A stretch of DNA of 7,811 nt from a bacterium (GTDB taxonomy: Bacteria; Blakebacterota; Blakebacteria; Blakebacterales; Blakebacteraceae): contig JALGWK010000066.1 in assembly GCA_025774205.1 (NCBI GenBank), positions 1 to 7,811 of the forward strand. The letters run 5' to 3'. Below, piece after piece: positions 1-7,811 of this stretch. Every line of letters starts with the position of its first letter. Position 1 is the first letter of the stretch. Made by a program: the position numbers and the translations under genes. Under the pieces are notes generated by a model. The model saw only the letters and a list, made by a program, of their open reading frames with translations, was not told the origin of the DNA and ran no database searches.

Positions 1-1488
1 GCCGGCGGACATCCCTTCACCTACCGGATCGAACATCGGCCTTTGAGCCGCCCGGCGTGGGATCCGATCGATGGTTCCCTCACGATCGTCGGGGAGGATG
101 AGCCGCTGCTCGAGTTCCATTCCAATTTCAACATGATCGCCAGCAACTCGCATTCGACACCTCCCGAAGGAGTAAGGGCGGAACTCGTCTTCGTCGGGGC
201 CGGACGGGCGGAGGACTTCGAGGGCCTCGATGTAGCGGGAAAGATCGTCTTCGGCGCCACCAGTGTTGGTCGGCTCTACCGCTCCGCGGTCCAGCAGGGC
301 GCGCTCGGAGCGCTCGGGTACAGCATGGCGGCCTACAAGCGGCCGGAGATCTACCGTCACTCCATCACTTTCACCTCCATCTCCTACGACGCGGAGCGGG
401 AGGGCTGGGGCCTGGCGCTCTCCCTGGCCGCCTTCGAGCGGCTCCGGGAGGCCGTGGCCGAGGGACGGGTGGAGGTCGAGGTGAAGATCGAAACCCGCAT
501 CTTCGAGTCGGAAGAACTCACCATCATCGCCGATGTCCACGGCACGGAACGGCCGGAGGAGCGGTTCGTCTTCAGTGCCCACGTCCAGGAACCGGGCGCC
601 AACGACAACGCTTCCGGTGTCGCGACCCAGTCGGAGATGGCCTGCGCCATTCCGCGGATGGTGGCCGCCGGCATGCCGCTGCCCCGACGCTCGATCTCCT
701 TCGTCTGGGGGGACGAGATCAGCAGCACCAGACGGTACCTCCAGGATGACCCGGAGCGGACGGCCGGGGTCAGGTGGGGGATCAGCCTCGACATGGTGGG
801 GGAGAACACCGCCCTGACCGGCGGTACCTTCCTGATCGAGAAGATGCCCGATCCCTCAGCGGTAGTCACCCGGGGGGAGGATCAGCACACCGAGTGGTTC
901 GGTTCCCGGAGAGGGCTGGCCGAGGACCGGCTGGTGCCGCACTACTTCAACGACTTCATCCTCTCCCGCTGTCTCGATCAGGCGGCGGCCACCCGCTGGG
1001 TGGTGAAGACCAACCCCTACGAAGGGGGGAGCGATCACGTTCCCTTCCTCAGCGCGGAGGTGCCCGGTCTGCTTCTCTGGCACTTCACCGATTACTTCTA
1101 CCACACCGACGGGGACCGGCTGGACAAGGTCTCGGCCAGCGAAATGCGGAACGTCGGCGTCTCGGCCCTGGTGAGCGCGCTGATCCTGACCTCGGCCGAC
1201 GAGGCGGCCGCCGTGGCGATCATCGAGGAGGTCACCAATGCGGCGATCACCAGACTCGATACCGAGTATGAACTGAGCCGCCAGGCGATCGGGGAGGGGG
1301 GCGAGAAGGCTGGTGAAGTACGGATCATACGCCTCTGGCGCGACTGGTACGCCGGGGCGATCCGTGAAGCGTCCGATATCGAGGTCGGGGGACCATCAGC
1401 CGCGATCGAACGGGTCATCGCCGGAGCGGTCGACCAGGTGATGGAGCATGGCACCAGGCTGATTGGACTGCTCGACAGTGGACGATAG
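1..1488 (+). CDS. M28 family zinc metallopeptidase with PA-like insert, 5' truncated
   Basis: The reading frame is open from base 1 to the TAG at 1486-1488 (495 visible residues), so the gene starts upstream of the window. A TTG at 43 is in frame, but the 14 residues before it read as normal protein and lack a signal peptide, so it is not taken as the start. Numbering from that TTG, residues about 43-155 resemble a PA-type insert (VFVGAG, GLDVAGKIVFG). The M28 zinc site follows: His180 (SAHVQEPG), Asp188 (GANDNASG), Glu225 (WGDE), Asp250 (SLDMVG) and His332 (GGSDH), then a YHTDGDRLD motif. All five expected metal ligands are present. Family knowledge: M28 enzymes are co-catalytic zinc aminopeptidases or carboxypeptidases, usually exported in these bacteria. 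Oddity: Asp224 sits where the family normally has its general-base Glu. The C-terminal 120 residues look helical. The substrate cannot be told; export is inferred because the N-terminus is missing. Confidence 0.9.
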   Translation, partial: AGGHPFTYRIEHRPLSRPAWDPIDGSLTIVGEDEPLLEFHSNFNMIASNSHSTPPEGVRAELVFVGAGRAEDFEGLDVAGKIVFGATSVGRLYRSAVQQGALGALGYSMAAYKRPEIYRHSITFTSISYDAEREGWGLALSLAAFERLREAVAEGRVEVEVKIETRIFESEELTIIADVHGTERPEERFVFSAHVQEPGANDNASGVATQSEMACAIPRMVAAGMPLPRRSISFVWGDEISSTRRYLQDDPERTAGVRWGISLDMVGENTALTGGTFLIEKMPDPSAVVTRGEDQHTEWFGSRRGLAEDRLVPHYFNDFILSRCLDQAAATRWVVKTNPYEGGSDHVPFLSAEVPGLLLWHFTDYFYHTDGDRLDKVSASEMRNVGVSALVSALILTSADEAAAVAIIEEVTNAAITRLDTEYELSRQAIGEGGEKAGEVRIIRLWRDWYAGAIREASDIEVGGPSAAIERVIAGAVDQVMEHGTRLIGLLDSGR

Positions 1489-1504
1489 TGATATCATGAG
1501 CCGC

Positions 1505-1522
1505 GCCTCCGGTCACGGAGGC
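1505..1522 (+). other. Intercistronic GC hairpin
   Basis: GCCTCCG at 1505-1511 and CGGAGGC at 1516-1522 form a perfect 7-bp stem around the loop GTCA. It lies between the peptidase stop and the ribosome binding site of the EgtC-like gene. No T-run follows, so it is not an intrinsic terminator. It may stabilise or separate mRNA segments; that role is inference. Confidence 0.45.
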
Positions 1523-1531
1523 CCGCTACCC

Positions 1532-1536
1532 GGGAG
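1532..1536 (+). promoter_or_regulatory. Ribosome binding site that decides the start of the EgtC-like gene
   Basis: GGGAG at 1532-1536 is 3 nt from the ATG at 1540 but 9 nt from the ATG at 1546. Normal Shine-Dalgarno spacing therefore favours 1546, giving a protein that begins Met-Ser-Arg-Leu-Leu. This matches where family members begin Met-Cys-Arg. Confidence 0.65.
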
Positions 1537-1545
1537 TGAATGCCG

Positions 1546-2370
1546 ATGAGCCGTCTGCTGGCTTACATGGGACCCCCGATCCCGCTCTCACGCGCGATCA
1601 TCAATCATCCGCACTCCCTTATCGAGCAGGCGTACGCGCCGAAGGAGATGGTCACCGGCACGATCAACGCCGACGGCTACGGTTTCGGCTGGTATTCGGA
1701 TCAGAGTGAACGTCCCGGCGCCTATCACCGGGCGACTCCGATCTGGAGCGATCCCGACCTGCCGCGGGTCGGACGTGTCATCGACAGCTCCTGCATCTTC
1801 GCGGCGGTGCGCAACGCCACCCCCGGATTCGCGGTCGACCTGCTCAACGTCCCCCCCTACGTGCACCGTCACCTGCTCTTCATGCACAACGGCGCCATCG
1901 AGGGGTTCAACCACCGTTTCCGCAACATCCTGCTGAAAGGCATCTCGGAGGAGATCCAGGCCACCACCCACGGTTCGGCCGATTCGGAGGTCCTCTTCGG
2001 TCTGGCGCTTACGCAACTGCAGCGAGCGGGCGGAATGGGAGGGGAGGGTGCGGAGGCGCTGCGGGACGCTCTCGATCACACGCTCAGGCGGGTGATGGAG
2101 ATCGCCGGACCTGAGCAGGCCCGGGCTTCCCTCAACATGGGACTGACCAGCGGTCGGGCCATGGTCTTTACGCGTCTGGCCCGCGGGATCGAACCCAATT
2201 CCCTCTACCTCCTCAGGAAAGAAGAGGCGGTCTGGATCGCCTCTGAGCCGCTCGACGAGGCCGATGACTGGCAGGAGGTCCCGCCCGACAGCTGGGTTAT
2301 GATCGAATCAACAGGGACGGTCGAGATAACCTCGATACCCGATCTGCCCCCACGCCGCAGCTGGAGATAA
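1546..2370 (+). CDS. egtC: EgtC-like class II glutamine amidotransferase with Ser in place of catalytic Cys2
   Basis: The 274-residue protein has the length and layout of EgtC, the cytoplasmic Ntn-type amidohydrolase that removes the gamma-glutamyl group from gamma-glutamyl-hercynylcysteine sulfoxide in ergothioneine synthesis. Visible family motifs are the RLLAYMGPP N-terminus, NADGYGFGWY (41-50), AAVRNATPG (86-94), NVPPY (101-105), HNG (114-116), SADSE (144-148), TSGRAMVFTRLARG (201-214) and IASEPLDEADDW (231-242). The start at 1546 is chosen for ribosome-binding-site spacing and because it places residue 2 at the family's N-terminal nucleophile. That residue is Ser (AGC, 1549-1551), not Cys; the only cysteine is Cys83. 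After Met removal it would expose an N-terminal Ser, which could act as an Ntn nucleophile or could mark a protein without amidase activity. There is no signal peptide. No egtA, egtB or egtD is visible, so the symbol names the family, not a proven pathway role. The stop is 14 nt before the next gene's ATG. Confidence 0.8.
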   Translation: MSRLLAYMGPPIPLSRAIINHPHSLIEQAYAPKEMVTGTINADGYGFGWYSDQSERPGAYHRATPIWSDPDLPRVGRVIDSSCIFAAVRNATPGFAVDLLNVPPYVHRHLLFMHNGAIEGFNHRFRNILLKGISEEIQATTHGSADSEVLFGLALTQLQRAGGMGGEGAEALRDALDHTLRRVMEIAGPEQARASLNMGLTSGRAMVFTRLARGIEPNSLYLLRKEEAVWIASEPLDEADDWQEVPPDSWVMIESTGTVEITSIPDLPPRRSWR

Positions 2371-2384: not shown

Positions 2385-5300
2385 ATGTCCGGAGTCCGTT
2401 CCCCATATCGGGCCGCGTTGTGCGCGGCCCTTCTTCTCGTCATGGCCATCCCGATCGGGAGCAGGGCTCAGTCGGGAAGTGTCGATCCCTCCCTCATTGA
2501 AGTCCTGAGGGTCAGGAATATCGGGCCGGCCAACCTGGGGGGCCGGATCCACGATGTCGAGGCCCATCCCGACGATCCCGCCACGATCTGGGCCGGGCAT
2601 GCGTCCGGGGGCGTGTTCAAGAGCGTTAACCACGGCACGACCTGGGAGGCGGTCTTCGACGACCAGATCTCCACCTCGATCGGCGACATCGCGATCGCGC
2701 CCTCCAATCCGTCGATCGTCTATGTGGGGACCGGTGAGCAGAACAATCGCCAGTCTTCATCATGGGGCCACGGGATGTACCGGACTATGGACGGGGGGGA
2801 GAGCTGGACCCATCTGGGACTGGAGGGCACCCATCATATCGGTAAGGTGAAGGTGCATCCCGATAATCCCCATGTCGTCTGGGTGGCTGCCGTCGGTCAC
2901 CTGTGGGGACCGAACGAGGAGCGGGGGGTCTTTATGACCACTGATGGGGGCGCCACCTGGACGAAGACCCTCTACATCAACCAGGACACAGGTGTGATCG
3001 ATCTGGCGATCGACCCGGAGAGTCCGAACATCCTTTACGCGGCCGCCTATCAGCGTCGACGGACCGGGTTCGGATTCAACGGCGGTGGACCCCACGGTGG
3101 GATCTACCGGAGCACCGACGGCGGGCGGAACTGGCAGAAACTGACCGTGGGTCTCCCCACTGGTGAGGTCGGGCGGATCGGCCTCGACATCTGCCGGTCG
3201 GAGCCAAACGTGGTCTACGCCGTCATCGAGAGCCGCGAAACCGCGGAGGATCACCGGGTTGGAGGGGTGAGGCAGGATCGTTCCCCTCTCGGGGGCGTCT
3301 ACCGCTCGGATGATCGGGGAGCCAGCTGGACCCATATGAGTACCGAGAACCCGCGGCCGATGTATTACAGTCATATCCGGGTTGATCCGAACAACGATCT
3401 GAGGATCTGGGTACTCGCCACCCAGATATCGGTCAGCGAAGATGGCGGCATCACCTGGAACCGCAGATTCGTGGGTGGGATCCATGTCGACCACCACGCC
3501 CTGTGGTGGGACCCGAACGACTCCGATCACATCATCGTCGGCAACGACGGGGGACTCGACTGGACCTGGGACGGGGGTGAGACCTGGGTGGATATGCAGA
3601 CCGTGCCCTGGTCGCAGTTCTACGAGATCAGCGCCGATAACGTCGAGCCGTTCTACCACGTCATGGGCGGGCTGCAGGACAACTCCACCTGGTACGGCAA
3701 CAGCGGCAACTACTGGCGGATCGGCATCACCAACCGCGACTGGATGACGATCAACGGGGGGGACGGTTTCTACGCCGTGGCCGATCCCGTCGATCCCGAT
3801 ATTGTCTACGCCGAGTCGCAGGGGGGGAACGTGAACCGGAAGGACATGGCTGTGATGAGCAGCCGGTCTATCAAGCCGGTCCCTCCGGAAGGATCGGGTG
3901 AACGCTACCGGTTCAACTGGAACAGCCCGATAGAGATCAGCCCGCACAATCCCGCGAGGATCTATTTCGGAGGGAACCGCCTCTTCATCAGTGACGACCG
4001 CGGTGATACCTGGCGCCGGACCGACGATCTCACGAAGCAGATCGACCGGAACGACCTGGAGATAATGGGGGTGGTCAACAGCCAGATCCGGATCTCCCGC
4101 AACGACGGGATCTCCACCTACGGCAACCTCACCACCATCAGCGAATCGCCCCACACCGCCGGTGTGATCTGGATCGGTACCGACGATGGGAACCTGAAGG
4201 TCTCGCGCGATGACGGCACGACCTGGGCCGAGGTCTCCGATCGCATCCCCGACCTGCCGCCCCGTACCTATGTGACGAGGATCGAGGCGAGCCGCTTCGC
4301 CGGGGGCCGGGCGTATGTGACCTTCGATGGCCACCGGAACGATGATTTCAACATCTACCTCTTCGTGACCGAGGATTTCGGGCGTCGCTGGACCCTGCTC
4401 TCAGGCGGATTCCCGGCCGGGAGCAACGCCAATGTCATCCGCGAACACCCCCGGAACCCCAACCTCCTCTTCCTCGGGACCGAACGGGGGGCGTACTGGT
4501 CGTACGACCGGGGCGGGACCTGGAACCTCTTCGAGGGGGATATCCCGCGGGTGCCGGTGGATGACATCTACGTCCACCCCGACCGGAACGACCTGATCTT
4601 CGGCACCCATGCCCGCGGCGCCTGGATCATGGATGACATCAGCGCCCTGGAGGGGATGAGCGAAGAGGTCTTCCGCAGTCCGCTGACCCTTTTCCCGATC
4701 CGTCCCGCCTGGCGCTACAGCCGGTCGGGTCATCTCCAGGACCAGGGCGACTTCGTTTTCATCGCGCCCAATCCGCCCTACGGTGTCCTGATCAATTACT
4801 TCCTGCCGAACGAACTGACGGCGGAGGATGAGGTCTCGATCGTGATCACCGACGCTTCAGGCGAGTTCGTCTTCCGGATGTCGGGCACGAAGGAGCAGGG
4901 CGTGAACCGCGTCGTGTGGTCCTTCATGCATTCAATCGAGACCACCATGACCCCGGCGCAGCCGGGCATGCCGGTGTCATTCGCGTCCTCCGCCGCCGAA
5001 GCGGTGCCGGGCACCTATACGGTCACGGTGAGCGCGGGTGGAGCAACCGGGTCACAGACCGCGGAGGTCCGGCTCGATCCGAGGCTTGAGGGTCGGGTGG
5101 ACCTGCGGAACATGATCGCCCTGCGGGACGCGCAGCTCCAGGTAGCGCGACTCACGGCGGGACTCGACGGACCAGGTCAGAGATTGCAGGCGGTCAGCAG
5201 CCAGGTCCAGGAACTGCGGCAGTTCCTGCAGGCGCGGGATATCCCGGAATCGGTAGCGGACGCCCTGACAGCGTTCTCCGGAGAGATCCGGGACCTGACG

Positions 5301-5567
5301 GAGCGCTACTTTGCGGGCGGCGGTTTCCGGGCTCCGGGCAATGCGACCCGGGCACGACTGGCGGGGATCAACCGGGAGCTGAGAGGGGTGACCGGGCCGC
5401 TGCCGGCCGATGTCATGAGCCGGCTAGACGCGCTTGAACCGGAGGTCGGGGCGGCAGCAGATGCCGTGGAGGTGTTCCTCACCTCACGCGTTCCCGAACT
5501 GAACCGGACCCTGGGCAGCGCCGGGATATCCTTCATTCTGCCGCCGGGGATACCGCCCGCTGGCTGA
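2385..5567 (+). CDS. Exported VPS10/sortilin-type Asp-box beta-propeller protein
   Basis: The protein has 1060 residues from the ATG at 2385. It begins with a signal peptide: Arg5 and Arg9, a hydrophobic core (AALCAALLLVMAIPI), and a likely signal peptidase I site after Ser-Arg-Ala28. The mature part opens with RNIGPANLGGRIHDV, typical of the large sortilin-N-terminal/BNR-repeat family often annotated as glycosyl hydrolase. Eleven Asp-box motifs (S/T-x-D-x-G-x-x-W type) start near residues 80, 134, 185, 243, 308, 351, 394, 536, 607, 662 and 706, consistent with one large or two stacked propellers. Residues about 795-900 look like a beta-sandwich (VSIVITDASGEFVFRM; PGTYTVTVSAGG). Residues about 905-1035 are helical and Gln/Leu-rich. 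The likely location is periplasm, outer membrane or outside the cell. Asp boxes are structural and do not show catalysis, so no reaction is assigned; a role in binding or processing proteins or glycans is only inference. It is probably co-transcribed with the EgtC-like gene and is followed by a terminator. Confidence 0.9.
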   Translation: MSGVRSPYRAALCAALLLVMAIPIGSRAQSGSVDPSLIEVLRVRNIGPANLGGRIHDVEAHPDDPATIWAGHASGGVFKSVNHGTTWEAVFDDQISTSIGDIAIAPSNPSIVYVGTGEQNNRQSSSWGHGMYRTMDGGESWTHLGLEGTHHIGKVKVHPDNPHVVWVAAVGHLWGPNEERGVFMTTDGGATWTKTLYINQDTGVIDLAIDPESPNILYAAAYQRRRTGFGFNGGGPHGGIYRSTDGGRNWQKLTVGLPTGEVGRIGLDICRSEPNVVYAVIESRETAEDHRVGGVRQDRSPLGGVYRSDDRGASWTHMSTENPRPMYYSHIRVDPNNDLRIWVLATQISVSEDGGITWNRRFVGGIHVDHHALWWDPNDSDHIIVGNDGGLDWTWDGGETWVDMQTVPWSQFYEISADNVEPFYHVMGGLQDNSTWYGNSGNYWRIGITNRDWMTINGGDGFYAVADPVDPDIVYAESQGGNVNRKDMAVMSSRSIKPVPPEGSGERYRFNWNSPIEISPHNPARIYFGGNRLFISDDRGDTWRRTDDLTKQIDRNDLEIMGVVNSQIRISRNDGISTYGNLTTISESPHTAGVIWIGTDDGNLKVSRDDGTTWAEVSDRIPDLPPRTYVTRIEASRFAGGRAYVTFDGHRNDDFNIYLFVTEDFGRRWTLLSGGFPAGSNANVIREHPRNPNLLFLGTERGAYWSYDRGGTWNLFEGDIPRVPVDDIYVHPDRNDLIFGTHARGAWIMDDISALEGMSEEVFRSPLTLFPIRPAWRYSRSGHLQDQGDFVFIAPNPPYGVLINYFLPNELTAEDEVSIVITDASGEFVFRMSGTKEQGVNRVVWSFMHSIETTMTPAQPGMPVSFASSAAEAVPGTYTVTVSAGGATGSQTAEVRLDPRLEGRVDLRNMIALRDAQLQVARLTAGLDGPGQRLQAVSSQVQELRQFLQARDIPESVADALTAFSGEIRDLTERYFAGGGFRAPGNATRARLAGINRELRGVTGPLPADVMSRLDALEPEVGAAADAVEVFLTSRVPELNRTLGSAGISFILPPGIPPAG
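2410..2430 (+). other. GC-only hairpin inside the signal-peptide coding region
   Basis: GGGCCGCG at 2410-2417 and CGCGGCCC at 2423-2430 make a perfect 8-bp all-G/C stem with the loop TTGTG. It is followed at once by the T-rich run TTCTTCT (2431-2437). It lies about 25 nt into the propeller gene. It could slow translation or cause partial termination, or it may simply follow from Ala codons on both sides (GCC GCG and GCG GCC). Confidence 0.4.
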
Positions 5568-5613: not shown

Positions 5614-5650
5614 AACGCCTCCCGTCCGCCGGACGGGGGGCGTTTTATTT
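5614..5650 (+). terminator. Rho-independent terminator after the propeller gene
   Basis: The arms AACGCCTCCCGTCC (5614-5627) and GGACGGGGGGCGTT (5631-5644) pair over 14 bp with one T-G wobble and the loop GCC. They are followed by TTATTT, making a T-rich tail. It lies 46 nt after the TGA of the propeller gene. The tail reaches 5650, within the TAA stop codon (complement of 5649-5651) of the convergent receptor gene. On the - strand the hairpin is followed by CGATGACC, with no T-run, so strong termination is expected only for the + strand. Confidence 0.9.
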
Positions 5651-7811
5651 AATTCGGATTCCAGTTCACTGCCACCACGATGTGACGGCCCGGATTGTGG
5701 ACTCCCGAGCCGTGCTCCTTGTAGGCATGATCGAAAATATTGCCCAGCGTCACGCTCAGCCGCACCGGGCCGAACCTGCGACTCCCCCTCAGGTTCCAGT
5801 CCGACCAGCCGGGAGTGCCGCCGGGATCGATCCGGGTGTCGTAGATATCGTCGGTCGAGAGCCGCCGCTGGTCGGAGGCGGCCCTGACGAAAAGTTCGGC
5901 GGTCGTCGCCTCCTGTTGCCAGAGGATCCCCATCAGTCCCATCAGGGGCGGGATCCGTCTCATCGGTTCGTCGGCGGAGATGTTCCTGCCATAGGTGTAG
6001 AAGAGACTCTGCCGCAGCGTCAGTCGGCTGCTGACGGTCCACCGGCTCTGGAGTTCGAGGCCCTGGATCCAGGCCCGGTCGGAGTTGACCTTCATCCAGG
6101 CCTGTTCACCGGGATCCTCGATCCCGCTCCCGTTGGTGTCGACCCAGGTCTCTCCGGCCCAGCTGCCGGGGGCACGGACGATCAGGTCACGGATCGAGGT
6201 ACGGAAGAACCACGCTTCAATGTCGCTGCCGTTCCACTCCACTTTGGTGCCCAGCTCGTAGTTGGTGCTGGTTTCCGGACTCAGGTCGGGGCTGGGTACA
6301 TCCACGCCCGAGTTGGATGCCTTCAGGACGATGGTATCATTGAAGTTGGGCGCCCGGAAGCCCCGCGAGACGGTGGCGACCAGGTTCAGCCACGGCTTCA
6401 GCCGGTGACTGATCCCGATGTTGCCGGTGATATCCCGGAAGGATTCCTTATAGCGGCCGAAGGGAACGTCAAGGAGGGCGTCGATGGTGATTGCGCTCCA
6501 CCTGATCCCGAAGTCGATATCGGTCGCCGGTCCGGGGGTGAAGTTGTCGCTGAAGAAGGCACCGAACTGGGAATAGTCGGCACCGTCCGGGAAGGCCCCG
6601 CGGGTCTGGTAAGAGGTGTCGACCGTACTCTCGGTCCGGGTGCTTGCCACGGTGTCGTGGTAGTACTCGAGGCCCCATCGAAGGGTGTGGCGCGGTGAAG
6701 TCAGGGCAGTGAACTGCAGAAAGGTGCCGATGGTTCTGGTGACATCGTCATCGGTGGTCAGCAGGGGAGATCCGGTTCGGCGCTGGATCCGTCCTTCGTG
6801 CTCTCGCTGCCAGGAGACGTTCCACTCGACGCTGCTCAGCCAGGGGAGTGGTTGACGATGGGAATATTCGATCATGCCGAGGAACCGGTCCTGCGGTTCG
6901 TAGAGATAGGTTTCGTACCGTCCCGAGGCGTACTGGTCGTACCGGGGAACTTCCGACTGCCGGACCTTGAGCAGGTCAGCCCGCACGATCTGTCTGTCGC
7001 TCAACCGGAGGGCGGTGATCAGGTGGAAGCCGATGTCGTCGTACCCGGTCGGTTTGTGAACCGGGATCTCGCCGCCCGGGTCGAGGTTGCCGATCGACCT
7101 GGCTGTCACGCCCGCCTGCGCCGCGAAGTCTGTTCCGGCCGCCCTCAGTCCAAGGTGCACACTGCGGCCGTCGTCAGCCGAGGTGTAGCGGGTGGAGAGG
7201 TTGGGCGCGAGACGGAAGCCGCCGTCGGTGAAGGCGGGCGGCCGGGTGATCATGTTCACCACCCCGCCTATGGCGTCCGATCCGTAAAGGACCGACCCCG
7301 GGCCGCGAACCACCTCGATCCGTTGCAGCGCTTCAGCGTCCACAGTGTTCATATACTGGTTGCCGCCCGGTCTGATCGTCGGCCGGTTGAGACGAACACC
7401 GTTGTAGAGGAGGAGGATGTCGTTGCCGATCAGGCCCCGGATGATGGGGGCTCCATGGCCGGCAGTCGTCTTCTGCACCAGAATCCCGGTCATTTCGCGG
7501 AGAGCATCAGCGGTGCTCGATGAGGAACGGTGTTCGATGACGTTCTCGTCTCCCACCGCGACGGCTTTCTGGGTGCGGAATTCCGATTCAGACCGGCGAT
7601 TGGCGGTAACGGTCACACGCTCCATCTCGAGCGCTTCCGGGATCAGGTGGATCTCCAGCTGGAGGGTTTCGCCCTCGTCGAGTGAGACCGGTACTTCGTA
7701 CTCCCGGTATCCGAAATAGCTGGCGACCAGGATATCCTCGAGAGGGGGAAGGTTGAGGATGACGAACCTTCCCTCCCGGTTGGTGAACGAGCCGCTGGTC
7801 GACTCCCGCAG
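5649..7811 (-). CDS. TonB-dependent outer-membrane receptor with carboxypeptidase-regulatory-like N-terminus, 5' truncated
   Basis: The frame is open from the right edge (7811) to the TAA at 5651-5649, giving 720 visible residues. The in-frame ATG at 7625 is internal: the 62 residues before it (including TNREGRFVILNLPPLEDILV and SYFGYREYEVPVSLDEG) are a carboxypeptidase-regulatory-like beta-sandwich, so the true start and signal peptide lie outside the window. Next comes a TonB-box-like VTVTANRR (visible residues 66-73), then the plug at about 87-192, with ALREMTGILVQ, IIRGLIGNDILLLYNGVRLN, IEVVRGPGSVLYGSDAIGGV and NMITRPP. The remaining 530 residues are a 22-strand-type barrel with alternating aromatic strands. 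It ends in GNIFDHAYKEHGSGV and a last strand VVAVNW followed by NPN, rather than the usual terminal aromatic. The family takes up ligands such as siderophores, haem, cobalamin or glycans across the outer membrane using TonB-ExbBD energy. The ligand here is not identifiable. A predicted surface loop holds an EF-hand-like sequence (6105-6140). The gene converges on the + strand genes. Confidence 0.93.
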   Translation of the reverse strand: MRESTSGSFTNREGRFVILNLPPLEDILVASYFGYREYEVPVSLDEGETLQLEIHLIPEALEMERVTVTANRRSESEFRTQKAVAVGDENVIEHRSSSSTADALREMTGILVQKTTAGHGAPIIRGLIGNDILLLYNGVRLNRPTIRPGGNQYMNTVDAEALQRIEVVRGPGSVLYGSDAIGGVVNMITRPPAFTDGGFRLAPNLSTRYTSADDGRSVHLGLRAAGTDFAAQAGVTARSIGNLDPGGEIPVHKPTGYDDIGFHLITALRLSDRQIVRADLLKVRQSEVPRYDQYASGRYETYLYEPQDRFLGMIEYSHRQPLPWLSSVEWNVSWQREHEGRIQRRTGSPLLTTDDDVTRTIGTFLQFTALTSPRHTLRWGLEYYHDTVASTRTESTVDTSYQTRGAFPDGADYSQFGAFFSDNFTPGPATDIDFGIRWSAITIDALLDVPFGRYKESFRDITGNIGISHRLKPWLNLVATVSRGFRAPNFNDTIVLKASNSGVDVPSPDLSPETSTNYELGTKVEWNGSDIEAWFFRTSIRDLIVRAPGSWAGETWVDTNGSGIEDPGEQAWMKVNSDRAWIQGLELQSRWTVSSRLTLRQSLFYTYGRNISADEPMRRIPPLMGLMGILWQQEATTAELFVRAASDQRRLSTDDIYDTRIDPGGTPGWSDWNLRGSRRFGPVRLSVTLGNIFDHAYKEHGSGVHNPGRHIVVAVNWNPN

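Follow-up and report, generated by a model that had tools for sequence, protein, structure and literature searches.

An EgtC-like protein carrying serine in place of the cysteine nucleophile of its family (Ser2 for Cys2) has been fixed in at least two species of one bacterial genus, where its gene is maintained by purifying selection. Since these bacteria apparently make ergothioneine by a different route, the Ser2 protein has probably taken on another job. The reading that we favour, at about even odds, is that an EgtC descendant no longer tied to ergothioneine synthesis has been repurposed as a serine-type Ntn amidohydrolase, with a gamma-glutamyl or glutamine-like amide as its substrate.

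The Ser2 gene in two species

The window analysed is a whole contig (C205; 7,811 nt) of the MAG G000 (3.09 Mb, 527 contigs, 86% complete). Its features, together with the codons of the Ser2 protein discussed below, are as follows.

1..1488, + strand: M28 peptidase, upstream neighbour, 5' end cut by the contig end (same position in G001)
1496..1553, + strand: two ATGAGCCG copies (1496-1503 and 1546-1553) flanking a 42-nt stretch with the hairpin GCCTCCG/CGGAGGC (stretch absent in G001)
1532..1536, + strand: GGGAG, Shine-Dalgarno-like, 9 nt ahead of ATG 1546 (from the sequence)
1546..2370, + strand: EgtC-like protein of the class-II glutamine-amidotransferase fold, 274 aa, Ser2 (TIGR03442, PF13230, structure model compared with EgtC)
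1549..1551, + strand: AGC, Ser2, the nucleophile position (all 124 close homologues have Cys here; AGC also in G001)
1810..1812, + strand: codon of Arg89, invariant, matching the Arg that binds the gamma-glutamyl carboxylate in class-II amidotransferases (predicted role; alignment with EgtC and GlmS chains)
1885..1893, + strand: codons of His114-Asn115-Gly116, oxyanion-hole motif, kept (family alignment)
1981..1983, + strand: codon of Asp146, invariant, matching the putative alpha-amino-binding Asp of the family (family alignment)
2385..5567, + strand: BNR/Sortilin-Vps10-like repeat protein, downstream neighbour (same position in G001)
5649..7811, - strand: TonB-dependent receptor, convergent, 5' end cut by the contig end (same position in G001)

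The reading frame of the Ser2 gene is intact (274 codons). The encoded protein opens Met-Ser-Arg-Leu-Leu-Ala-Tyr, with AGC directly following the ATG at 1546-1548, at the place where EgtC has Met-Cys-Arg. One other start, two codons earlier, was considered and is disfavoured. GGGAG lies just 3 nt ahead of ATG 1540 (which would give Met-Pro-Met-Ser), so that ATG 1546, with its spacing of 9 nt, is the better placed. The earlier start is also disfavoured by G001, a second MAG of the same genus (82% complete; four genomes of the phylum were sampled), in which the in-frame upstream sequence reads stop-N-D-I and contains no start codon.

The G001 orthologue (80% protein identity, 78% nucleotide identity) also begins ATG-AGC and lies in an identical gene order: M28 peptidase, Ser2 gene, BNR/Vps10-like protein and convergent TonB receptor. 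A sequence-only reading of the window had reported an intact frame with Ser2 replacing Cys2 in a protein of the EgtC family, and both this frame and the family assignment by fold and sequence were confirmed. The same reading had left room for a sequencing or assembly error, as a single base separates TGC from AGC. The same AGC in the independent G001 orthologue, at this level of nucleotide divergence, excludes such an error for practical purposes, and we assign it a negligible probability. Close homologues of the same clade that all carry Cys2 had been named as evidence against a genuine Ser2; the same-genus orthologue carries Ser2.

Comparison of the Ser2 genes of G000 and G001 gave a dN of 0.127 and a dS of 0.995, i.e. 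a dN/dS of 0.13, which is approximate with dS near 1; the three neighbouring genes gave 0.13-0.14, and this comparison is independent of that uncertainty. A gene in the first stages of decay after loss of function is very improbable. Although its presumed pathway partner EgtB was not found (see below), its dN/dS is that of its neighbours, neither species has a frameshift and no other invariant residue is lost, in contrast to the decaying cyanobacterial homologue L138 (Gly2, Gly89, Asp115).

The two genomes differ at the gene start, where G000 has 50 extra nucleotides, consisting of the second ATGAGCCG copy and the 42-nt stretch with its 7-bp hairpin. This leaves a 17-codon upstream frame (ATG 1496), whose stop codon (TGA, 1547-1549) overlaps the start codon of the Ser2 gene. 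A mobile element was considered and rejected: the 50-nt difference is single copy in the genome, and the hairpin region folds no better than shuffled sequences (z -0.32). The difference is accounted for equally well by slippage at the 8-nt repeats, with a deletion in G001.

The neighbours of the Ser2 gene within the window point to no substrate or pathway. The gene is not near egtD, unlike many Cys2 EgtC genes.

Family assignment, active site and origin

The Ser2 proteins match the EgtC equivalog model TIGR03442 over their full length (226.6 bits in G000 and 226.3 bits in G001; cut-off 218.65), and PF13230 (GATase_4) is matched with 43.5 bits (cut-off 23). An AlphaFold2 model built from a nine-sequence alignment (pLDDT 82.6, pTM 0.84; residues 33-39 and the C-terminus are poor) superimposes on the EgtC structures 4ZFJ/4ZFK/4ZFL with Z 27 and 2.3-2.5 A over 224-228 residues, residue 2 falling on residue 2. 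The matches to PurF and GlmS have Z 22-24. A structural model and an inspection of the pocket had been proposed as a check; the EgtC-like fold, Arg89, Asn115-Gly116 and Asp146 all proved to be retained.

Residue 2 was tabulated in 135 homologues, drawn from genome searches that covered about 980 genomes and from a single scan of genome contigs. Cys2 was recognized by motif in 125 of the 135 (107 ATG-initiated, 18 with another first codon). In an alignment of the 124 close homologues, from which distant rows were set aside, Cys2 is universal (124/124), and Ser2 occurs in both members of the genus, which is the tabulation that the sequence-only reading had called for. Among columns conserved at 97% or more in this alignment, position 2 is the only one at which the genus pair departs from the family. 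Both proteins keep Arg3, Gly9, Gln28, Asn41, Asp43, Gly44, Gly46, Arg89, Pro104, His114, Asn115, Gly116, Asp146, Ser147, Leu220, Ser233, Glu234 and Trp242. At less conserved columns, Phe105 is replaced by Tyr and, in G000 only, Asp202 by Ser. The pocket roles of Arg89 and Asp146 are predicted from alignment to EgtC and GlmS chains and from general knowledge.

As regards its class, the protein has the Ntn fold, the family match, and the Arg89, Asn115-Gly116 and Asp146 of class-II amidotransferases. Two defining features of EgtC are missing from the genus: (i) the Cys2 nucleophile and (ii) a genome with EgtB and usually an egtB/C/D cluster, the latter absence being provisional. Judged by sequence model and fold, the protein belongs to the EgtC branch, and by the defining catalytic residue and by pathway it falls outside the definition of EgtC. 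We therefore name it EgtC-like with Ser2, not EgtC; as a statement of function, the label 'EgtC' given by automatic annotation is probably wrong.

Five further relatives lack Cys2: the cyanobacterial L138 (Gly2) and the distant L039 (Val2), L041 (Ala2), L043 (Ser2) and L046 (Ala2), residue 2 of the four distant ones having been assigned by eye from the reading frame. Asn115 is replaced in all five (by Asp, Gln, His, Tyr and Thr), and Arg89 is also lost in L138 and L046. The genus pair is thus the only non-Cys2 case that retains Asn115, in a contrast set that is small (five proteins, four of them distant). Within the limits of this sample, no other observation argues as well as the retention of Asn115 for an active site that is still in chemical use.

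L138 (G449 C1:2692067-2692852), a cyanobacterial EgtC with Gly2, Arg89 replaced by Gly and Asn115 by Asp, has intact Cys2 sisters on short branches; it looks recently inactivated despite its open frame. The GATase_4-like proteins L039, L041, L043 and L046, without Cys2 and the oxyanion Asn and mostly with Arg89 and Asp146, may be a group of their own that binds gamma-glutamyl compounds without catalysis.

In a maximum-likelihood tree of 122 sequences, the Ser2 pair forms one clade (100/100), which answers the phylogenetic question raised by the earlier reading. This clade is sister to actinobacterial EgtCs (95/90) and nested within a large group that includes cyanobacterial and gammaproteobacterial proteins. 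Many members of this group adjoin egtD, and in most of the tested genomes an EgtB gene is adjacent (e.g. in G600, EgtB at 270928-272181 and EgtC at 272244-272990). Nesting among EgtB-linked EgtCs indicates that Cys2 is ancestral; the ancestor was thus very probably a working Cys2 EgtC, and a single TGC-to-AGC change explains the present Ser2 state.

Ergothioneine synthesis in the genus

EgtD is encoded in both MAGs; the G000 protein exceeds the TIGR03438 cut-off, and the G001 gene is split across two contigs. Directly 3' of egtD, both carry a gene for a molybdopterin oxidoreductase fused to a cysteine desulfurase, of the MES type. The fusion is full length in G001 (1140 aa; L019:280-3699), and the G000 copy (L011, C166) is cut by the contig end and an N gap. 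In the G001 protein the N-terminal half matches acetylene hydratase 2E7Z and the C-terminal half NifS/IscS, as in the published description of MES (PMC9516567). All eight cysteines and the lysine reported as functional are conserved: Cys19, 22, 26, 52, 157, 1078, 1101 and 1139 and Lys956 of the G001 protein stay in register, always 4 or 5 residues further along, with Cys14, 17, 21, 48, 153, 1074, 1097 and 1135 and Lys952 of Caldithrix abyssi MES (PMC9516567). The G001 protein thus combines the Mo-pterin and cysteine desulfurase domains with the Fe-S, metal-ligand and relay cysteines, the PLP lysine and an adjacent egtD.

No EgtB was detected at cut-off in any of four phylum members (G000-G003); the best hit was a 35-bit match covering, judging by its position, only the formylglycine-generating-enzyme-like domain. 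A GCS2-type gamma-glutamylcysteine ligase was likewise not found in the genus. Both absences are provisional, the two MAGs being 86% and 82% complete; the presence of EgtD and MES is not.

MES is a metallopterin-dependent ergothioneine synthase that passes sulfur from cysteine straight to trimethylhistidine. This route has no gamma-glutamyl intermediate, and so EgtC has no job in it. From its gene content, the genus appears to make ergothioneine by a route other than EgtB/EgtC. With EgtD and MES present and neither EgtB nor a GCS2-type ligase detected, the normal EgtC substrate, gamma-glutamyl-hercynylcysteine sulfoxide, is probably absent.

These data also bear on an EgtC that still serves ergothioneine synthesis with a serine nucleophile, EgtB having been missed in the incomplete assemblies. 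The scores above the TIGR03442 equivalog cut-off in both genomes and the presence of egtD fit this view. However, neither genus member has EgtB at cut-off, MES directly follows egtD in both MAGs, the gene lies away from egtD while many Cys2 EgtCs adjoin it, and no GCS2-type ligase was found that would make gamma-glutamylcysteine. We therefore consider it improbable. As compared with EgtC (TIGR03442; 4ZFJ/4ZFK/4ZFL), the protein is alike in fold (Z 27), in length, in its near-invariant residues save position 2 and in its place in an EgtB-linked clade; it is unlike EgtC in Ser2, in its distance from egtD and in its lineage, which has MES and no detected EgtB.

The idea that loss of EgtB generally leads to Ser2 is not supported, as Cys2 homologues also occur in genomes in which no full-length EgtB was found. 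Seven genomes of a small phylum (G055, G198, G329, G970, G971, G973 and G974) have a Cys2 EgtC-like protein and no full-length EgtB that could be found, and no MES metallopterin domain was detected in these seven. Their Cys2 proteins probably have another EgtC-like function outside ergothioneine synthesis.

Predicted activity of the Ser2 protein

In the mechanism proposed for the serine-type amidohydrolase, methionine aminopeptidase would remove Met1 and expose Ser2. A gamma-glutamyl or glutamine-like substrate would be held at its alpha-carboxylate by Arg89 and at its alpha-amino group by Asp146. Activated by the alpha-amino group of Ser2 itself, the Ser2 hydroxyl would attack the gamma-amide, Asn115/Gly116 would stabilise the oxyanion, and water would then hydrolyse the gamma-glutamyl-serine ester. 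A serine nucleophile with its own alpha-amino group as the base is characteristic of serine Ntn hydrolases (PMC3289653). The substrate is probably not gamma-glutamyl-hercynylcysteine sulfoxide, since with MES ergothioneine arises from cysteine and trimethylhistidine in a direct step.

Glutaryl-7-ACA acylase and the penicillin acylases, serine Ntn hydrolases of other subfamilies, share the N-terminal Ser and alpha-amino base predicted here. Their serine is exposed by autoproteolysis and not by simple Met removal. The class-II glutamine amidotransferases (GlmS, PurF; PF13230 GATase_4, PF13522) share the Ntn fold and the Arg/Asn-Gly/Asp glutamine-binding set, but the protein described here is standalone, has no synthase domain and carries Ser at the nucleophile position. 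Replacement of Cys by Ser in these amidotransferases generally abolishes activity, which counts against a serine hydrolase, as does the compatibility of purifying selection and a retained pocket with a binding protein.

The alternative is a catalytically dead pseudoenzyme in which the fold and pocket serve to bind or sense glutamine or a gamma-glutamyl compound; it might act as a regulator or a carrier. We give it an appreciable probability, below that of the serine amidohydrolase. The ordinary nucleophile is lost, and the other non-Cys2 relatives look dead. The fold matches also include the beta-lactam and carbapenam synthetases, in which the GAT fold has lost its catalytic Cys; these enzymes are fused to synthetase domains and are far more diverged, unlike the present protein, which keeps its active site apart from the nucleophile. 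EgtC C2A was crystallised with the natural substrate (4ZFL), which means that the pocket can bind without Cys2 and keeps the pseudoenzyme reading alive. On the other hand, the genus pair keeps Asn115 and every other near-invariant residue, unlike the five dead-looking relatives, and the replacement is a conservative Ser, a genuine Ntn nucleophile, not Gly, Ala or Val. For these reasons we favour the serine amidohydrolase over the dead gamma-glutamyl-binding protein. Both options, serine-type Ntn hydrolase and binding protein, had been raised by the sequence-only reading and are still live; the assay substrate that it proposed is probably not made in this genus.

Somewhat short of even confidence, we suggest that the Ser2 protein is the first natural enzyme of the class-II amidotransferase fold in which Cys gave way to a working Ser with an otherwise unchanged active site, derived from EgtC in a metallopterin-route lineage and with a new gamma-glutamyl or glutamine-like amide as its substrate. 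No earlier natural Ser variants of this fold were found in the open-access literature searched, and "first" is our own judgement.

The EgtC equivalog model (TIGR03442) names the Ser2 proteins EgtC, though nucleophile and pathway partner are both missing. Nature has here exchanged the nucleophile cleanly, and the pathway gives this swap a clear rationale; the function is a predicted one. The case offers a clean natural experiment on the switch of a cysteine Ntn hydrolase to serine by one base change with its active site kept, and it shows how an enzyme of the ergothioneine pathway may find a new use in bacteria that rely on a different route.
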